DNA of 11,656 bases from an uncultured Ruminococcus sp. (GTDB lineage Bacteria; Bacillota; Clostridia; Oscillospirales; Acutalibacteraceae). Shown here piece after piece: positions 2,728 through 11,042 of the stretch; the stretch's first letter is position 1, and every line of letters starts with the position of its first letter. The notes under the pieces are model-generated. The model did no database searches. It was not told where the DNA came from and worked only from the letters and a program-made list of their open reading frames with translations. The position numbers and the translations under genes are program-made. The stretch lies in NCBI GenBank assembly GCA_905234305.1, contig CAJOHT010000039.1, positions 1 through 11,656 on the forward strand. The letters run 5' to 3'.

Positions 2728-3075
2728 ATGGTAGTAAAGGATATTATAGACATCTTAGAGGGCGACGTAATCTGTGAAGGCGATTTAAATAAAGAAATCA
2801 AAACCGCCTGCGGCTCAGATATGATGAGCGATGTACTCGCGTTCGTTAAAGACCAAAGCGTGCTGCTTACGGGACTCGTTAATCCTCAGGTTGTAAGAAC
2901 AGCCGAGATGATGGATATGGCGTGTATCGTATTTGTTCGCGGAAAAGATCCCGACCAGAGTATTATCAACTTAGCCGAGCAAAGGGATATCACCCTTATG
3001 AAAACTAAATACAGAATGTTTACCGCCTGCGGACTTCTTTACGCTAACGGACTTTCGGGAGGTACTAAGGTATGA
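2728..3075 (+). CDS. DRTGG domain-containing protein
   Basis: A 115-residue soluble protein that fits the stand-alone DRTGG family, a small alpha/beta domain also found in some CBS and phosphotransacetylase-related proteins. Its ligand is not established. The N-terminus VVKDIIDILEGDVICEG matches the family opening. The core contains SVLLTGLVNPQVVRTAEMM (about 45-63) and CIVFVRGK (66-73), and the C-terminal part ends with FTACGLLYANGL. It shares layout with the second DRTGG gene at 4825 (ILEDD/LE, IxxVL, ACIVFV versus SCIILV). In Clostridia such genes recur beside [FeFe]-hydrogenase genes. AAAGGG at 2713-2718 precedes the ATG by nine bases. It is first in the operon, and its stop overlaps the next start as ATGA, implying translational coupling. 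Confidence 0.82.
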   Translation: MVVKDIIDILEGDVICEGDLNKEIKTACGSDMMSDVLAFVKDQSVLLTGLVNPQVVRTAEMMDMACIVFVRGKDPDQSIINLAEQRDITLMKTKYRMFTACGLLYANGLSGGTKV

Positions 3076-3503
3076 GTAACGCTATACATCTTCATTTCGA
3101 TGTATCGAGCGATGACTTTACGCGCGCGGGTGAAGCCAGCGGTTCGGTAAAGAAAAGGCTTAAATCCCTCGGATATGATCCCGACGCTATCCGCAGAGTA
3201 GCTATAGCTATGTATGAGGCTGAAATTAATATGGTAATTCACGCTGACGGCGGATACTGCGACGTAGATATCTATCCCGATAAGGTCGAAATACTTTTAT
3301 CAGATAAGGGACCAGGAATACCCGATGTAGAAAAAGCTATGCAGGAAGGCTTTTCAACCGCGCCCGATAACGTAAGGTCTTTAGGCTTCGGCGCGGGTAT
3401 GGGACTGCCTAATATCAAAAAATACACCGACGAAATGAGAATCGAAACAACAATCGGCGTCGGTACTAATCTTTATTTAACGGTGAATGTAAACAATGAA
3501 TAA
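3072..3503 (+). CDS. RsbT/RsbW-like HATPase (anti-sigma/switch kinase type)
   Basis: A 143-residue single-domain GHKL ATPase. Visible motifs are an N-box EAEIN (E49, N53), a G1 box DKGPG (D78, G80, G82) and a G2 region GFGAGMGL (105-112). Length and motif order match anti-sigma factors and serine/threonine switch kinases of the RsbW/RsbT/SpoIIAB class. It lacks the dimerisation histidine domain of sensor kinases. Known family members phosphorylate a partner anti-sigma antagonist or bind a sigma factor. No such partner (STAS protein, SpoIIE phosphatase or sigma factor) is encoded nearby. GGGAGG at 3057-3062 gives a nine-base spacer. The ATG overlaps the stop of the DRTGG gene, and hydS-like follows 15 bases after its stop. 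Presumably it transmits the state of the neighbouring hydrogenase homologue; this is inference. Confidence 0.85.
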   Translation: MSNAIHLHFDVSSDDFTRAGEASGSVKKRLKSLGYDPDAIRRVAIAMYEAEINMVIHADGGYCDVDIYPDKVEILLSDKGPGIPDVEKAMQEGFSTAPDNVRSLGFGAGMGLPNIKKYTDEMRIETTIGVGTNLYLTVNVNNE

Positions 3504-3518
3504 ATCTAAGGAGTAATT

Positions 3519-4793
3519 ATGAGTACATATTTTCACTCCGTCAGGCTGGAAGTGGATAAATGCTGCGGATGTACAAACTGCCTTAAAAGATGCCCTACCG
3601 AGGCTATAAGAATACGAGACGGCAAGGCTCATATCCTCTCGGAAAGGTGTATAGACTGTGGCGAATGCATACGCATATGTCCTCACCACGCTAAAAAGGC
3701 GCATAGCGCCGATTCGGACGATATTAAAAAATTTAAATATAACGTAGCTATCCCCGCTCCCGCTTTATACGGTCAGTTTAATAATCTCGATAAAGCGAAC
3801 ATTGTACTTACGGGGCTTAAAGAACTGGGTTTTAACGATATTTTTGAGGTATCAAGAGCGGCGGAGCTTGTATCGGAAGCTACAAGAAACCTTATAAAAG
3901 AAAAAAAGCTCAACAAACCTATAATAAGCTCGGCGTGTCCTGCTATAGTAAGGCTTATAAAAATCCGCTTTCCCGAGCTTTGCAGCAACGTTCTTCCGCT
4001 TATGGCTCCGATTGAGGTAGCCGCGAGAATGGCAAGAAAGGAAGCTATTAAGAAAACAGGCTTAAAATCCGAGGAAATAGGAGTATTCTTTATCTCCCCC
4101 TGCCCCGCTAAAGTGACGGAAATCAACACCCCTAACAGTGTAGAAAAATCCGCGTGCAACGGCGCTATAGGAATATCAAGGATCTATCCCGAGCTTACTA
4201 AGGCTATGGACCATCTTGAGCATATTGAAAGTATATCGCGCTCTGGCTTAATCGGAATCGGCTGGGCTACCTCGGGCGGAGAAAGCGCGGGAATGCTCGG
4301 CGACAAATATCTTGCCGCAGACGGTATCGAAAACGTCATCAGAATTCTTGAGGAATTAGAGGACGAACATATACGTGACGTCGATTTTGTAGAGCTTAAC
4401 GCTTGCGCGGGCGGATGCGTCGGCGGTGTACTTACCGTTGAAAACCCTTACGTTGCTCAGGCGCGTATCCAGAAACTAAGAAAATACCTGCCCGTATCGC
4501 TCAATCACCTTGAGGACGGCGATTTGGAAAATATGATGTGGGAGCATGAGCTTGAATTTGACGCTGATATTTTCCGCCTAAGCGACGATATTTTTAAGGC
4601 TATGGAAATGATGGATAAAATGGAAAACATCTGCAAGGAGCTTCCTGGACTTGACTGCGGCTCCTGCGGCTCTCCCACCTGCCGCGCTATGGCGGAGGAT
4701 ATCGTAAAGGGTGAAGCTAAGGAAACCGACTGTATCCATAAACTCAAAGAAAAGATACACAGTGTTTACGATCAGCTGAAAAACACTATTTAG
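3519..4793 (+). CDS. hydS: HydS-like (sensory-type) [FeFe]-hydrogenase homologue
   Basis: A 424-residue cytoplasmic iron-sulfur protein. Residues 15-25 and 44-54 form two CxxCxxCxxxC [4Fe-4S] ferredoxin motifs. The hydrogenase catalytic-type domain spans about 75-330, with modified motifs: L1 SSACPA (C140), L2 SPCPAKVTE (C195) and L3 ELNACAGGCVGG (C296, C300). Four apparent H-cluster cysteines are kept, but Ala139 stands before C140 where catalytic enzymes usually have the proton-relay Cys. That Ala is described for sensory HydS enzymes. A C-terminal domain LDCGSCGSPTC (C380, C383, C388, plus C405) matches the PF04060-type Fe-S fold. The PAS domain found at the end of characterised HydS proteins is absent. 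AAGGAG at 3508-3513 sets the start. A role as an H2 or redox sensor is inferred; low-rate hydrogenase activity is possible. Confidence 0.85.
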   Translation: MSTYFHSVRLEVDKCCGCTNCLKRCPTEAIRIRDGKAHILSERCIDCGECIRICPHHAKKAHSADSDDIKKFKYNVAIPAPALYGQFNNLDKANIVLTGLKELGFNDIFEVSRAAELVSEATRNLIKEKKLNKPIISSACPAIVRLIKIRFPELCSNVLPLMAPIEVAARMARKEAIKKTGLKSEEIGVFFISPCPAKVTEINTPNSVEKSACNGAIGISRIYPELTKAMDHLEHIESISRSGLIGIGWATSGGESAGMLGDKYLAADGIENVIRILEELEDEHIRDVDFVELNACAGGCVGGVLTVENPYVAQARIQKLRKYLPVSLNHLEDGDLENMMWEHELEFDADIFRLSDDIFKAMEMMDKMENICKELPGLDCGSCGSPTCRAMAEDIVKGEAKETDCIHKLKEKIHSVYDQLKNTI

Positions 4794-4824
4794 GATTCAG
4801 GGTTCAGAATTTTGGGTGATTAAT

Positions 4825-5151
4825 ATGAATGTTAAAGAACTGATTGAAAAACTTGATTTAAAAATTCTTGTTGAGGACGATTTAGAAAGAGATGTCACCG
4901 ATTGCTATATCGGCGATCTCTTAAGCTGGGTTATGGGGCGCGCTCCCGAGGACAGCGCGTGGCTTACCGTTATGGGCAACATAAACTCTATCGCGGTCGC
5001 TACATTAGCAGACGTAAGCTGTATAATCCTCGTAGAAAACGCCGCGCTAGATAACGACGCTAAGGCTAAGGCGGAAATGCACGGCGTTAACATACTGCTT
5101 TCGGAAGAAAACAGCTACAGCTTAGCGGTTAAAATCAGCAAATTGATATAA
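4825..5151 (+). CDS. Second DRTGG domain-containing protein
   Basis: A 108-residue protein, paralogous in layout to the DRTGG protein that opens the operon. It has MNVKELIEKLDLKILVEDD at the N-terminus, CYIGDLLSWVMGRA (about 27-40), a DSAWLTVMGNINSIAVATLAD segment (about 43-63), and the strand SCIILVENA. It ends in a short helix. The ATG at 4825 is chosen over the in-frame GTG at 4816 because that GTG lies inside GGGTGAT (4814-4820), which fits the GGTGAT end of the anti-Shine-Dalgarno complement. The gene follows hydS-like after about 30 bases and precedes the PHP gene by nine. Two different DRTGG proteins in one operon suggests they act as a pair or heterodimer; this is inference. Confidence 0.8.
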   Translation: MNVKELIEKLDLKILVEDDLERDVTDCYIGDLLSWVMGRAPEDSAWLTVMGNINSIAVATLADVSCIILVENAALDNDAKAKAEMHGVNILLSEENSYSLAVKISKLI

Positions 5152-5160
5152 GGTAATTTA

Positions 5161-5886
5161 ATGAAATATTTTTACGACCTTCATCTTCACTCCTGCCTTT
5201 CTCCATGCGGCGATATGGATATGACGCCGAATAATATCGTTAATATGGCTAAGCTCTTAGGTCTGGATGTGATTGCGCTGACCGACCATAACACCTCGCT
5301 TAACTGCAAGGCGGCTATAGAGGTCGGGAACGAAATCGGCTTAACGGTAATCCCAGGGATGGAGCTTACTACCAGCGAGGATATCCACGCCGTATGCCTT
5401 TTTCCTGACCTTGAAAAAGCAATATGTTGGGATGAATATGTAAGGGATAACAGAATAAAAATAAAAAACAAAGCTGAGATTTACGGCCGCCAGGTCATTA
5501 TGAACAGCGCTGACGAGGAAATCAGAGAAATTGAGGAACTGCTTTTGCCAGCGAGTAATATCAGCATTATGAACGCTTATGAAAAGGTAAAAGAGTTCGG
5601 CGGTATCTGCTACCCCGCTCATATTGACCGCGACAGCCTCTCGATTCTCTCGGTACTGGGCGAAATTGACGAAAGCTGCGGCTTTAAAACAGCGGAGCTT
5701 TACGATAAATCCCTTGAAGAAGATTTAAAAAAGCTCCACCCTATTCTGAACAATCTAAATATAGTAACGAACTCGGATGCGCATTACCTTGAGAATATGC
5801 GTGACGCTCAAAACTATATCGAACTTGACTCATTAAATCCCCAAAATGTAATAGATTATCTTGACAGCAATAAAAAGGTCGTTTAA
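5161..5886 (+). CDS. PHP-domain metal-dependent phosphoesterase
   Basis: A 241-residue enzyme of the PHP superfamily, a metal-dependent phosphoesterase fold that also occurs as histidinol phosphatase and in DNA polymerase III. Metal-binding motifs are in order: DLHLHS (H8, H10), ALTDHNT (D42, H43), GMELTTSEDIHAV (E68, H76), CYPAHIDR (H154) and TNSDAHYL (D206, H208). All expected ligands are present, so it is probably active. Its substrate is unknown; 3',5'-nucleotide or other small phosphoesters are known for relatives. It is the last gene of the HydS operon, with AAGG at 5150-5153 overlapping the previous stop. Its stop codon lies in the loop of the terminator hairpin. Recurrent linkage of PHP genes to hydrogenase genes in Clostridia suggests a regulatory or signalling job here. 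Confidence 0.88.
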   Translation: MKYFYDLHLHSCLSPCGDMDMTPNNIVNMAKLLGLDVIALTDHNTSLNCKAAIEVGNEIGLTVIPGMELTTSEDIHAVCLFPDLEKAICWDEYVRDNRIKIKNKAEIYGRQVIMNSADEEIREIEELLLPASNISIMNAYEKVKEFGGICYPAHIDRDSLSILSVLGEIDESCGFKTAELYDKSLEEDLKKLHPILNNLNIVTNSDAHYLENMRDAQNYIELDSLNPQNVIDYLDSNKKVV

Positions 5887-6017: not shown

Positions 6018-6090
6018 ATCTCTAAACGTATAAGTGCGCCCAGACGTATATATAATTAAGCGCACAATATCATTTAAAGGAGGAAAAACG

Positions 6091-6591
6091 ATGCTAAAGA
6101 AAATCAGCAATCTGCCCTTTAAGGGCACACCTGAACAGGAAGCTCAGCTGAAAGAGGTCATTAAAAAGCACCTCGACGATCCAGGCGCGGTAATGCCTGT
6201 CTTACAGGAAGCTCAGGATATTTACGGCTACCTTCCGATTGAGGTCCAGACTATGATTGCCGAAGGACTTAATGTACCGCTCGAGGAGGTTTACGGAGTA
6301 TCTACTTTCTACTCCCAGTTTGCTCTTTCACCTAAGGGTAAATACAACATCTCGGTATGTTTAGGAACCGCTTGTTATGTAAAAGGTTCGGGCGATATTC
6401 TCAACAAGCTCTCCGAATTACTCGGAATCGAGGCTGAAGAGTGTACACCTGACGGAATGTTCTCGCTTACCGCTTGCCGTTGTATCGGCGCGTGCGGATT
6501 AGCTCCCGTAATCACAGTTAATGATGATGTTTACGGTAGATTAACAGTAGACGACGTACCCGGCATTATCGGAAAATACAAAGATGCGTGA
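6091..6591 (+). CDS. hydC: HydC, NuoE-like [2Fe-2S] subunit of bifurcating hydrogenase
   Basis: A 166-residue subunit of the trimeric NAD(H)- and ferredoxin-dependent [FeFe]-hydrogenase. It belongs to the NuoE/HymA family of thioredoxin-like [2Fe-2S] proteins. The N-terminal helical part (about 14-60) contains the family segment MPVLQEAQDIYGYLP. VYGVSTFYSQF (68-78) leads into the cluster domain. Cluster ligands are C90 and C95 (CLGTAC) and C131 and C135 (CIGAC), all present. The ATG at 6091 is chosen over an in-frame GTG at 6034 because AAAGGAGG (6076-6083) sits seven bases upstream of the ATG and the GTG would add residues with no family match. It opens the operon, and its stop overlaps the next start by eight bases. 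Confidence 0.93.
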   Translation: MLKKISNLPFKGTPEQEAQLKEVIKKHLDDPGAVMPVLQEAQDIYGYLPIEVQTMIAEGLNVPLEEVYGVSTFYSQFALSPKGKYNISVCLGTACYVKGSGDILNKLSELLGIEAEECTPDGMFSLTACRCIGACGLAPVITVNDDVYGRLTVDDVPGIIGKYKDA

Positions 6592-7135: not shown

Positions 7136-7510
7136 ATGAAATCTTTAGCTGAATTACAGGCTATCAGAGAGAGAGCAAAGGCAAGTCTCGACCTGAGAAA
7201 AGAAAACCCCAACGCTTGCCGCGTACTTGTAGGTATGGCTACATGCGGAATTGCCGCGGGCGCAAGACCTGTACTTAACGCTTTTACTGAAGAAATCGCT
7301 AAAAGAGGATTAACTGACAGTGTTACAGTTACTCAGACAGGCTGCATCGGCATCTGCCAGTATGAGCCCGTTGTAGAAATCGAAATTCCAGGTGAGGAAA
7401 AAGTAACGTACATTAAGATGACTCCCGAAAAAGCGGTTAAGGTTGTTAACGACCATATTGTAAATAAAAACGTTATTACCGAATATACAATCGGTACAAT
7501 GGGCAAATAA
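7136..7510 (+). CDS. Thioredoxin-like (2Fe-2S) ferredoxin domain protein
   Basis: A 124-residue protein of the thioredoxin-like [2Fe-2S] family, related to the N-terminal domain of HydB and to NuoE. An N-terminal helix (1-25) precedes the cluster fold. VLVGMATCGIAAGARPVL (about 30-47) is the first motif and TQTGCIGICQYEP (66-78) the second. Cysteines are C28, C37, C70 and C74. The usual first Cys of the CxxxxC pair is Gly33 here. C28 could supply a fourth ligand, but its position is unusual. GGAGGTG at 7121-7127 lies eight bases before the ATG, and the gene starts three bases after the previous stop. It probably supports electron transfer or assembly of the hydrogenase; in some clostridial operons this small gene is a standard member. 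Confidence 0.85.
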   Translation: MKSLAELQAIRERAKASLDLRKENPNACRVLVGMATCGIAAGARPVLNAFTEEIAKRGLTDSVTVTQTGCIGICQYEPVVEIEIPGEEKVTYIKMTPEKAVKVVNDHIVNKNVITEYTIGTMGK

Positions 7511-7522
7511 AGGAGGGCAATA

Positions 7523-8743
7523 ATGTATCGTTCTAATGTGCTTGTTTGCGGCGGTACCGGATGTACCTCCTCAGACAGTTTAAAAATCGTAGATAAACTC
7601 AACGAGGAACTTAAGGCTAAAGGACTTGATAAAGAAGTAAACGTTATTACAACAGGATGCTTCGGACTTTGCGCTTTAGGTCCGATTATGGTAGTTTATC
7701 CCGAGGGCAGCTTCTACTCAATGGTAAAGGTAGAAGATATCCCCGAAATCGTTGAGGAACATCTCTTAAAAGGAAGAATCGTTACCCGTCTTCTCTATCA
7801 GGAGACAGTTGAAAACGATACCGTAAAATCACTTAACAAAACCGCTTTCTACGCTAAACAGAAGCGTGTTGCTTTAAGAAACTGCGGTGTTGTTGACCCT
7901 GAGAAGATTGATGATTATATCGCTCAGGACGGTTACGCGGCATTAGGTAAGGTTCTTACCGAAATGACCCCCGAAGACGTAATCCAGACTATGCTTGACT
8001 CGGGACTCAGAGGCCGCGGCGGCGCGGGCTTCCCCACAGGCTTAAAGTGGAAATTCGCTGCAGGCAACCAGGCGGATCAGAAATACGTTTGCTGTAACGC
8101 CGACGAAGGCGACCCCGGCGCGTTTATGGATCGTTCCGTACTTGAGGGTGACCCCCACGTACTTATCGAGGCTATGGCGATCGCTGCTTACGCTATCGGC
8201 GCTGACAAAGGCCGAGTATACGTAAGAGCCGAGTATCCTATCGCTGTTAAGCGTTTACAGATCGCTATCGACCAGGCTCGCGAGTATGGTCTTTTAGGCG
8301 AGGATATCTTCGGAACAGGATTTAACTTTGACTTGGAGCTTCGTCTCGGCGCGGGCGCGTTCGTTTGCGGTGAGGAAACAGCTCTTATGACCTCTATCGA
8401 GGGTAAGCGCGGCGAGCCCAGACCTCGTCCCCCGTTCCCCGCTGTTAAGGGTCTTTATCAGAAACCGACTATCTTAAACAACGTTGAAACATACGCTAAT
8501 ATCCCGCAGATTATCTTAAAGGGTGCCGACTGGTTCGCTTCAATGGGTACCGAAAAGAGCAAGGGTACTAAGGTATTCGCTCTCGGCGGTAAGATTGAGC
8601 ATACGGGACTCGTTGAGGTACCTATGGGTACTACACTCCGCGAAATCGTAGAGGAAATCGGCGGCGGTATCCCGAACGGCAAAAAGTTTAAGGCCTCGAT
8701 ATTCCTATCGACTACGATAACCTCCTCGAAATCGGCTCAATGA
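7523..8743 (+). CDS. hydB: HydB (NuoF-like) N-terminal two thirds, frame-broken
   Basis: The diaphorase subunit of the bifurcating hydrogenase; binds FMN and NAD(H). Residues 1-90 form a thioredoxin-like [2Fe-2S] domain (C9, C14, C46, C50). The FMN/NADH domain shows [18 protein letters not shown] (161-178), [14 protein letters not shown] (191-204) and [16 protein letters not shown] (277-292). The SLBB-like region runs about 349-390. After K390-A391 the sequence departs from the family. The normal continuation with the GGPSGGC segment is missing, and the conserved [15 protein letters not shown] resumes at 8695 in another frame. The 15 residues from 392 to the stop are therefore nonsense. Frame arithmetic requires a loss of 1 mod 3 bases, probably 43 or 46. 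AAGGAGGG at 7510-7517 sets the start. As written, the protein lacks its N3 and ferredoxin clusters. Confidence 0.9.
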
Positions 8744-9285
8744 TGGGCTCCGGCGGACTTATCGTTATGGACGAAACAACCTGTATGGTTGATATCGCTA
8801 AATTCTTCCTCGAGTTCACCGTTGACGAAAGCTGCGGTAAATGTACTCCCTGCCGTATCGGCACAAAGAGACTTCTCGAAATGCTCGATAAAATCACAAA
8901 GGGTCAGGGTACCCTCGAGATGATCGACGAAATGGAAGAGCTTTGCTACTTCATTAAGGCTAACTCGCTTTGCGGACTCGGACAGACCGCTCCCAACCCC
9001 GTACTCTCAACTCTCCGTTATTTCAGAGATGAGTATATCGCTCACGTAGTTGACCATAAATGTCCCGCGGGCGTATGTAAGGATCTTCTCGAGTTCCATA
9101 TTGATAAAGATAAATGTATCGGCTGCGGAATGTGCGCAAGAAAATGTCCTGTATCTACAATTCATCCTTCGGACTATATCGCACCAGGTAAAAAGAAACC
9201 CGCTTACCAGATCGACACAAGCAAGTGCGTTAAGTGCGGCGCTTGTATTGATAACTGTAAGTTCGGCGCAGTATCTAAAGGCTAA
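8740..9285 (+). CDS. hydB: HydB C-terminal third in a shifted frame
   Basis: This 181-residue frame carries the rest of Hyd[14 protein letters not shown] (C32, C35, C38) with C78 of [11 protein letters not shown] forms the NuoF-type N3 [4Fe-4S] site. Two C-terminal ferredoxin motifs (C126, C129, C132, C136 and C163, C166, C169, C173) match the extension typical of bifurcating HydB. The homologous frame actually opens at 8695, 15 codons before the first ATG, so the ATG is not a natural gene start. The upstream stop and this ATG overlap as ATGA, so coupled re-initiation could make it as a separate chain; no ribosome binding site is present. A functional split subunit seems unlikely because the GGPSGGC segment is absent from both parts. 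Intact HydB would be about 600 residues. Confidence 0.88.
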
Positions 9286-9302: not shown

Positions 9303-11042
9303 ATGGAAATGCTTAACATTAAAATTAACGGCAAAGATTATTCCGTTGAAAAAAATACCACTATTCTTGAAGCCTGCCATCAGTTCGGAATCAAGGTTCC
9401 GACATTATGCTACCTTAAGGATATTAACGAAATCGGCGCGTGCCGTATGTGTCTTTGCGAGGTTAAAGGCGCAAGAGGTTTAGTAGCGGCTTGCGTATAT
9501 CCTATTGAAAGAGAAGGAACTGAAATCTTTACTAACACTCCTCAAATCCGCAAGTACAGAAAGATGAACCTTGAGCATCTCCTTTCAAATCACGACAAGA
9601 AATGTCTCTCCTGCCCGAGAAACGATAACTGCGAGCTTCAGAAGCTCTGTCTTGAGTACGGCGTAGACGAAGAAAAATTCCAGGGCGAGGAAACTAAATA
9701 TAAGGAAGATAAATCTACCTTACACCTCGTTCGCAATAATAACAAATGTATCCTTTGCCGTCGTTGCGTAGCGGCTTGTAAGAACCAGTACGTATCTGTT
9801 ATCGGCGCTAACAACAGAGGTTTTGATACAGCTATTTCATGCGCTTTCGATCAGGATCTCGATCAGGTTTCCTGCGTAAGCTGCGGACAATGTACTGTAG
9901 TATGTCCGACAGGCGCTTTAGTTGAGCGCGACGATACAGCCAAAGTATTTGAGGCTATCGCCGACCCGACTAAGCACGTTGTTGTTCATACAGCTCCCTC
10001 AATCAGAGCTACTCTCGGCGAGTGCTTCGGTATGCCTATCGGCTCTAACGTAACCGGCAAAATGGCTACCGCTCTCCATATGCTCGGCTTCGATAAGGTA
10101 TTTGATACCAACTTCGGCGCTGACCTTACAATTATGGAAGAAGGCACCGAGTTTATCCACCGCGTAAAAGAAGGCGGTACACTGCCGATGATCACCTCCT
10201 GCTCACCAGGATGGATCAAGTTCTGCGAGCATTATTATCCCGACCTTATCCCCCATCTCTCGACTTGTAAATCACCTCAGCAGATGCAGGGTGCTATGAT
10301 TAAATCCTACTATGCTGAGAAAGCGGGAATCGACCCGAAGGATATCGTAGTTGTATCCGTAATGCCCTGCGTTGCTAAGAAATTTGAGATTAAGCGTGAC
10401 AATCAGGGCCGCGACGGTATGCAGGATAACGATATTTCAATCTCGACAAGAGAGCTTGCTAAGATGATTAAGACTGCAGGTATCCAGTTCACCGAGCTTG
10501 AAGACGGCGAATTCGATCCCATTATGGCTATCGGTTCAGGCGCTGGTACTATCTTCGGAGCTTCGGGCGGTGTTATGGAAGCTGCTCTCCGTACTGTTGC
10601 GGACATCCTCACAGGCGAGGATTTAGCTGAGTTCGAGTATAAAGAAGTACGCGGTATGGACGATGTTAAGGAAGCTACTTATAACGTAGCGGGCATCGAC
10701 GTAAACGTTGCCGTTACCTCCGGACTTAAGAACGCCGCTAAACTTCTCGACGAAATCCGCGCCGGTAAGTCTAAATATCACTTTATCGAGGTTATGTGCT
10801 GTCCAGGCGGTTGTATTAACGGCGGCGGTCAGCCGATCCAGCCCGGTCACGTAAGAAACTTTGTTGATCTTCGCGAAAAGAGAGCAGAAGCTCTCTACGA
10901 CGACGACCGTCATCTCCCGTTCAGAAAGTCTCACGATAACCCTGAAATCAAGGCTATCTACGACGAGTATCTCGGCGAGCCGGGTTCTCATAAGGCACAC
11001 GAACTCTTACATACTTCATACGTTAAACGTAAGAAATATTAA
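9303..11042 (+). CDS. hydA: HydA, catalytic [FeFe]-hydrogenase subunit
   Basis: The 579-residue H-cluster subunit that makes or oxidises H2 in the cytoplasmic HydABC complex. Domains in order: a plant-type [2Fe-2S] ferredoxin (C36, C47, C50, C64); a His-Cys [4Fe-4S] site (H97, C101, C104, C110); two [4Fe-4S] motifs (C149, C152, C155, C159 and C191, C194, C197, C201); then the H-cluster domain. L1 is TSCSPGW (298-304), L2 is MPCVAKKFE (354-362) and L3 is EVMCCPGGCINGGGQP (496-511). The C-terminal small-subunit-like tail (about 520-579, HNPEIK-type and YDEYLGEPGSHKAHELLH) is complete. L1 has Ser at the fourth position and L3 has Cys where Ala is common. AAAGGAG at 9288-9294 gives an eight-base spacer to the ATG at 9303. 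It is last in the operon and followed by a strong terminator. Confidence 0.96.
   Translation: MEMLNIKINGKDYSVEKNTTILEACHQFGIKVPTLCYLKDINEIGACRMCLCEVKGARGLVAACVYPIEREGTEIFTNTPQIRKYRKMNLEHLLSNHDKKCLSCPRNDNCELQKLCLEYGVDEEKFQGEETKYKEDKSTLHLVRNNNKCILCRRCVAACKNQYVSVIGANNRGFDTAISCAFDQDLDQVSCVSCGQCTVVCPTGALVERDDTAKVFEAIADPTKHVVVHTAPSIRATLGECFGMPIGSNVTGKMATALHMLGFDKVFDTNFGADLTIMEEGTEFIHRVKEGGTLPMITSCSPGWIKFCEHYYPDLIPHLSTCKSPQQMQGAMIKSYYAEKAGIDPKDIVVVSVMPCVAKKFEIKRDNQGRDGMQDNDISISTRELAKMIKTAGIQFTELEDGEFDPIMAIGSGAGTIFGASGGVMEAALRTVADILTGEDLAEFEYKEVRGMDDVKEATYNVAGIDVNVAVTSGLKNAAKLLDEIRAGKSKYHFIEVMCCPGGCINGGGQPIQPGHVRNFVDLREKRAEALYDDDRHLPFRKSHDNPEIKAIYDEYLGEPGSHKAHELLHTSYVKRKKY

Follow-up and report, generated by a model that had tools for sequence, protein, structure and literature searches.

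The window analysed here, the whole stretch of 11,656 nucleotides from a draft genome of an uncultured Ruminococcus sp., carries on its forward strand a hydB gene in the neighbourhood expected for an NAD-linked [FeFe] hydrogenase, with hydA and a hydC-like gene alongside. The features of this locus are as follows.

6034..6591, + strand: hydC-like gene (NuoE-like 2Fe-2S protein) in one open frame; PF01257 at 172.3 bits, profile positions 2-145 of 145
7136..7510, + strand: gene of a small 2Fe-2S thioredoxin-like ferredoxin, between the hydC-like gene and hydB; PF01257 at 25.7 bits (cut-off 24.8)
7523..8743, + strand: 5' piece of hydB, with a 2Fe-2S thioredoxin-like part, the FMN domain and an SLBB domain that is cut short; the last 15 residues (392-406) are out of frame
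8694..8695, + strand: junction lacking 46 bases that all 28 comparable relatives carry; its edges can be placed to within 1-2 bases
8695..9285, + strand: 3' piece of hydB, in which the HydB frame is resumed, with the NADH_4Fe-4S domain and two 4Fe-4S motifs
8740..8743, + strand: ATGA, where an in-frame ATG and the stop codon of the shifted frame overlap
9303..11042, + strand: hydA, catalytic subunit, intact in one open frame of 579 aa; NF040763 at 882.8 bits (cut-off 765)

The hydB frame opens at 7523 and is typical of the family up to K390 (codon 8690-8692) and A391 (codon 8693-8695), after which 15 out-of-frame codons lead to a TGA at 8741-8743, the whole ORF comprising 406 aa. The remainder of HydB is read in a second frame from 8695 to 9285, where the earliest ATG, at 8740, opens an ORF of 181 aa. 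The initial annotation had described a NuoF-like frame that turns into nonsense after K390-A391, with HydB continuing from 8695 in a different frame; all of its coordinates hold. The 5' piece is 95% identical over residues 1-392 to an intact relative, P0002 (602 aa), and the 3' piece is 91% identical to residues 406/407-602 of the same protein. Neither piece contains an internal stop, no further decay is seen in hydB, and N is absent within 300 bases of the junction. As a sequence, the break in hydB is not a chance pattern.

Comparison with relatives defines what is missing. A search of 59 genomes (the genome itself and 58 relatives), 54 of which gave a match, yielded 29 hydB loci outside the own genome. 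One of these, L021, stops at a contig end before the site; each of the 28 loci with sequence across it, including L015, which ends 2 bases past the segment, carries 46 extra bases in an open frame and reads K-F-K-A-A-Q-[TS]-G-G-P-S-G-G-C-I-P. The loss had been put at 43 or 46 bases, of which the larger figure stands and the smaller does not, and the prediction that the missing segment holds GGPSGGC is borne out by all 28 relatives. The break was also considered as a trait of the lineage, for which close relatives with the same split had been named as the sign to look for, and was rejected as such, since none of the 28 comparable relatives shares it. The collection grew to 109 loci, or 108 without one duplicate, with 80 more drawn from named genome records (best 80 of 579; the nearest records are drafts called Ruminococcus sp. 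or uncultured Clostridia). Among these 109, 97 are full length in one frame and 11 end at a contig end; none of them, mostly from different species, is split at the window's site. None of the 14 junction-spanning 15-mers, and none of the 20 junction-spanning 21-mers, occurs in the 109 related loci.

Pfam profiles place the break within the SLBB domain. The 5' piece holds the FMN-binding Complex1_51K domain whole (PF01512, profile 3-149 of 150) and the N-terminal 2Fe-2S thioredoxin-like part (PF01257, profile 67-143 of 145, as also in intact P0002), and its SLBB domain is incomplete (PF10531, profile 3-37 of 55 vs 3-53 of 55 in P0002). GGPSGGC, looked for in the 406-aa protein, is absent. The NADH_4Fe-4S domain (PF10589, profile 1-85 of 85) and the C-terminal 4Fe-4S pair are present in the 3' piece, out of frame with the 5' piece; in P0002 all of these are read in a single frame.

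The overlap of the shifted-frame stop with the ATG at 8740 might be taken as a sign that two working polypeptides together make up HydB, translation of the second being restarted at the ATG of the ATGA. We regard this as barely credible. About 15 conserved residues, including GGPSGGC, would still be missing, and the split occurs in no relative tested. The overlap itself is explained by the conserved Met-Met of MMGSGG, and the shifted frame of the relatives likewise meets a stop at the position of 8740-8743.

The rest of the hydrogenase system appears sound. The hydA frame lies above the cut-off of NF040763, the family of NADH-dependent [FeFe] hydrogenase group A6, in agreement with the earlier claim of an intact catalytic subunit, and the maturase HydF is encoded in the genome in one frame, above its own cut-off. 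Two PF02906 genes were found in the genome, both within the window. Upstream of the hyd genes, at 2728-5886, lies a cluster with two DRTGG-domain genes, a PHP-domain gene and, at 3519-4793, a second gene of the [FeFe]-hydrogenase type that has 4Fe-4S and FeS domains; the cluster may be akin to sensory hydrogenase clusters. No second hydB to replace the broken one was found in this 92%-complete genome.

These observations bear on one rival explanation of the break, a real and very recent 46-bp deletion in the strain that inactivates HydB and leaves HydA and HydC without their NADH/FMN partner. The sequence as given reads this way, the junction is free of nearby N, and the loss is confined to this genome, as expected of a recent mutation. 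On the other side, HydA and HydF are intact although no replacement hydB was found, hydB has not decayed further, and other conserved genes of the same draft are broken in a like manner, as described below. We therefore consider a real deletion unlikely. In PMC9499530 the NAD site and the bifurcation site are both assigned, as a proposal, to the FMN of HydB, whose C-terminal domain carries clusters B3 and B4; a HydB cut at residue 391, lacking the downstream clusters, should thus have lost its NAD-linked function if the deletion were real.

The break was further compared with proteins matching the 5' piece. Among the 120 homologues listed, only the window's own protein (P0001) ends in this way, and the nearest other protein is 95% identical and intact. 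No other hydB copy of the same species is present among the 120 matches listed, whether the 5' or the 3' piece is used as query (nearest 95% and 91%, respectively). Occurrence on a single contig was rejected as a sign of error in itself, many intact listed proteins being likewise known from one contig. The 181-aa 3' ORF proved uninformative as a query for split genes, the recurring lengths of 181, 235, 262 and 314 probably reflecting internal starts and contig ends.

GGPSGGC is missing from 3 of the 120 listed homologues, namely the window's own protein, P0012 and P0094. The latter two belong with P0111 and P0118 to a set of proteins with 387 or 388 identical positions over the first 388 residues (five pairs compared), of which P0012 leaves the HydB register at residue ~394, P0094 at ~399 and P0118 at ~471, and P0111, a partial protein of 442 residues, stays in register throughout. 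The register loss of P0118 may be a contig-end effect. A second group, P0011, P0056, P0083 and P0085 (376-385 of 388 identical in pairwise comparison), leaves the register at ~432, 468, 468 and 452, respectively. Since the query covers residues 1-392 only, such a listing is enriched in proteins broken past residue 392. Contig ends fall in the same stretch: among 108 loci, 10 of the 11 contig ends inside hydB lie in codons 377-466 (L010, L015, L021, L026, L034, L035, L084, L091, L094 and L105). The chance of this is 0.0007 if ends are evenly spread over codons 377-602, a figure to be read with the interval having been picked post hoc and the search having favoured loci complete to residue 392. 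The differing breaks in near-identical copies, together with contig ends at one place, look like recurrent assembly trouble.

The same breaks in both groups, at differing points from 394 to 471, could instead be attributed to a real hotspot of frame-breaking deletions in the 3' half of hydB, by which strains of Ruminococcus-like bacteria would repeatedly lose or switch the NAD-linked hydrogenase and keep HydA intact, the window recording one such event. This explanation is very improbable in our judgement. The bias of the query towards proteins broken beyond residue 392 weakens it, as does the accumulation of contig ends in the same interval, which points to assembly, and the stretch is split in none of the 109 loci. 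The lone frame change among them, in L018 (genome G011), lies near residue 585, far from the window's site.

The draft itself consists of 195 contigs totalling 1.58 Mb, with 92.14% completeness and 3.97% contamination. In 616,730 of its bases (39%; 42 stretches from 42 contigs) we counted 24 N runs, 3-145 long and distributed over 16 of the 42 stretches, compared with none in 1,629,176 bases of seven genomes of the same genus. Their varied lengths make the runs look like scaffold gaps whose size was set from read pairs, although stretches withheld from the supplied sequence are also written as N and some runs may be of this kind. One run, of 128 N, begins at 11657, directly after the window's last base, 11656 (L115, contig C39). 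On another contig (L114, contig C3, ~15967-18193), N runs of 28 and 145 bases break up rnfC-like and rnfD-like frames; the Rnf complex thus also appears broken in the draft.

The draft was surveyed for frame-broken genes against ORFs of 150 aa or longer taken from three relatives, and the relatives were tested in the same way against each other. Eight of 177 own genes were flagged vs 1 of 215 in the three relatives (Fisher p = 0.009). Upon inspection, five of the eight proved to be breaks with no N within 300 bases, two held N runs, and one was a method error, the reference ORF having run past the rpsC start on its upstream side. The single control flag was an ORF antisense to apparently intact ribosomal protein genes, which reduces the controls to 0 of 215. 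The N-free breaks thus amount to 5 of 177 vs 0 of 215 (p = 0.018), or to 4 of 176 when hydB is left out (p = 0.040). This excess gives modest support for an assembly artefact; fragmentation is lower in the control drafts. Lowering the length limit to 100 aa weakened the contrast (10 of 231 own vs 8 of 322 control genes flagged); this wider survey holds many antisense ORFs and was partly inspected, its control flags being judged mostly antisense by strand, as shown for one of them, and for this reason our conclusions rest on the 150-aa survey.

The other N-free breaks, with gene names that are our reading of the sequences, are found in four genes. A clpC-like gene changes frame at L141 ~12392-12396, with 7 residues left unmatched at its second Walker A motif. 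In a recN-like gene the change lies at L203 ~12882, and in a sigma-factor-like gene at L136 ~13423-13432. In a small zinc-ribbon gene (L211 ~2107-2114) the frame changes at a run of eight G, and this break may be a homopolymer error.

Taken together, the N-rich draft, the other N-free breaks in conserved genes, the lack of a second copy of the break and the differing points (residues 392-471) at which hydB of other species is broken favour an assembly origin. We conclude that the 46-base loss is very probably an assembly error in a fragmented metagenome draft. The description of hydB as broken, by recent loss or by an assembly deletion, therefore stands as a reading of the sequence, and of its two proposed causes the evidence favours the second. 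Two pieces of hydB would have been joined and the bases between them dropped, and the organism itself would carry an ordinary intact hydB, whose product would work with the intact HydA and HydC.

As to how the misjoin may have arisen, the join would represent a gap whose estimated size was zero or negative and that was closed with no N inserted, that is, the lower tail of the gap sizes that are otherwise seen as short N runs. We prefer this mechanism because it is consistent both with the short N runs and with the small N-free losses. The junction is nearly blunt, given the 1-2 base ambiguity of its edges, and for that reason a join by overlap is not supported. Slippage between direct repeats was considered and set aside, as the nearby repeats (8636/8722 and 8654/8728) are not at the junction. 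DNA shared between species is not supported as a general cause of gaps: a shared 21-mer was found in 0 of 24 N-run flanks, in a test whose reference covers few of those genes, and at 5 of 75 contig ends. The hydB junction has a high value for shared DNA in the flank test (0.525), one that is biased by the 109 hydB loci in the reference. Within hydB, codons 381-460 belong to the stretches that are shared most, but the junction ranks only 230 of 1600 positions for shared 21-mers; its content of shared 21-mers is moderately, not extremely, high.

A real deletion would mean that a fermenter had very recently lost the NADH-linked arm of its hydrogen production. If, as is probable, the break is an artefact, it calls for caution: even at a rated completeness of 92%, a draft can make a well-conserved gene appear broken, and the enzyme would be wrongly missing from metabolic models derived from it. 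Contigs of related drafts often end in the same stretch of hydB.

Among known systems, the closest counterparts compared by sequence are the HydB subunits of trimeric NAD-linked [FeFe] hydrogenases (PDB 7q4v chain B and 7p5h chain B). The intact relative P0002 aligns with 7q4v chain B over residues 3-601, the missing segment with GGPSGGC included, and the order of HydB domains is alike. Unlike HydB of the 7q4v/7p5h type, the gene in the window lacks the 46 bases that include GGPSGGC and is read in a different frame beyond them. PMC11017572 describes spurious pseudogenes that arise through assembly errors. The present case differs in that metagenome-assembled genomes, by its own account, lie outside that study and in that the loss comprises 46 bases rather than a small indel; it resembles those pseudogenes in that a conserved gene carries one frame-breaking change and is otherwise undecayed, the draft having several genes of this sort.
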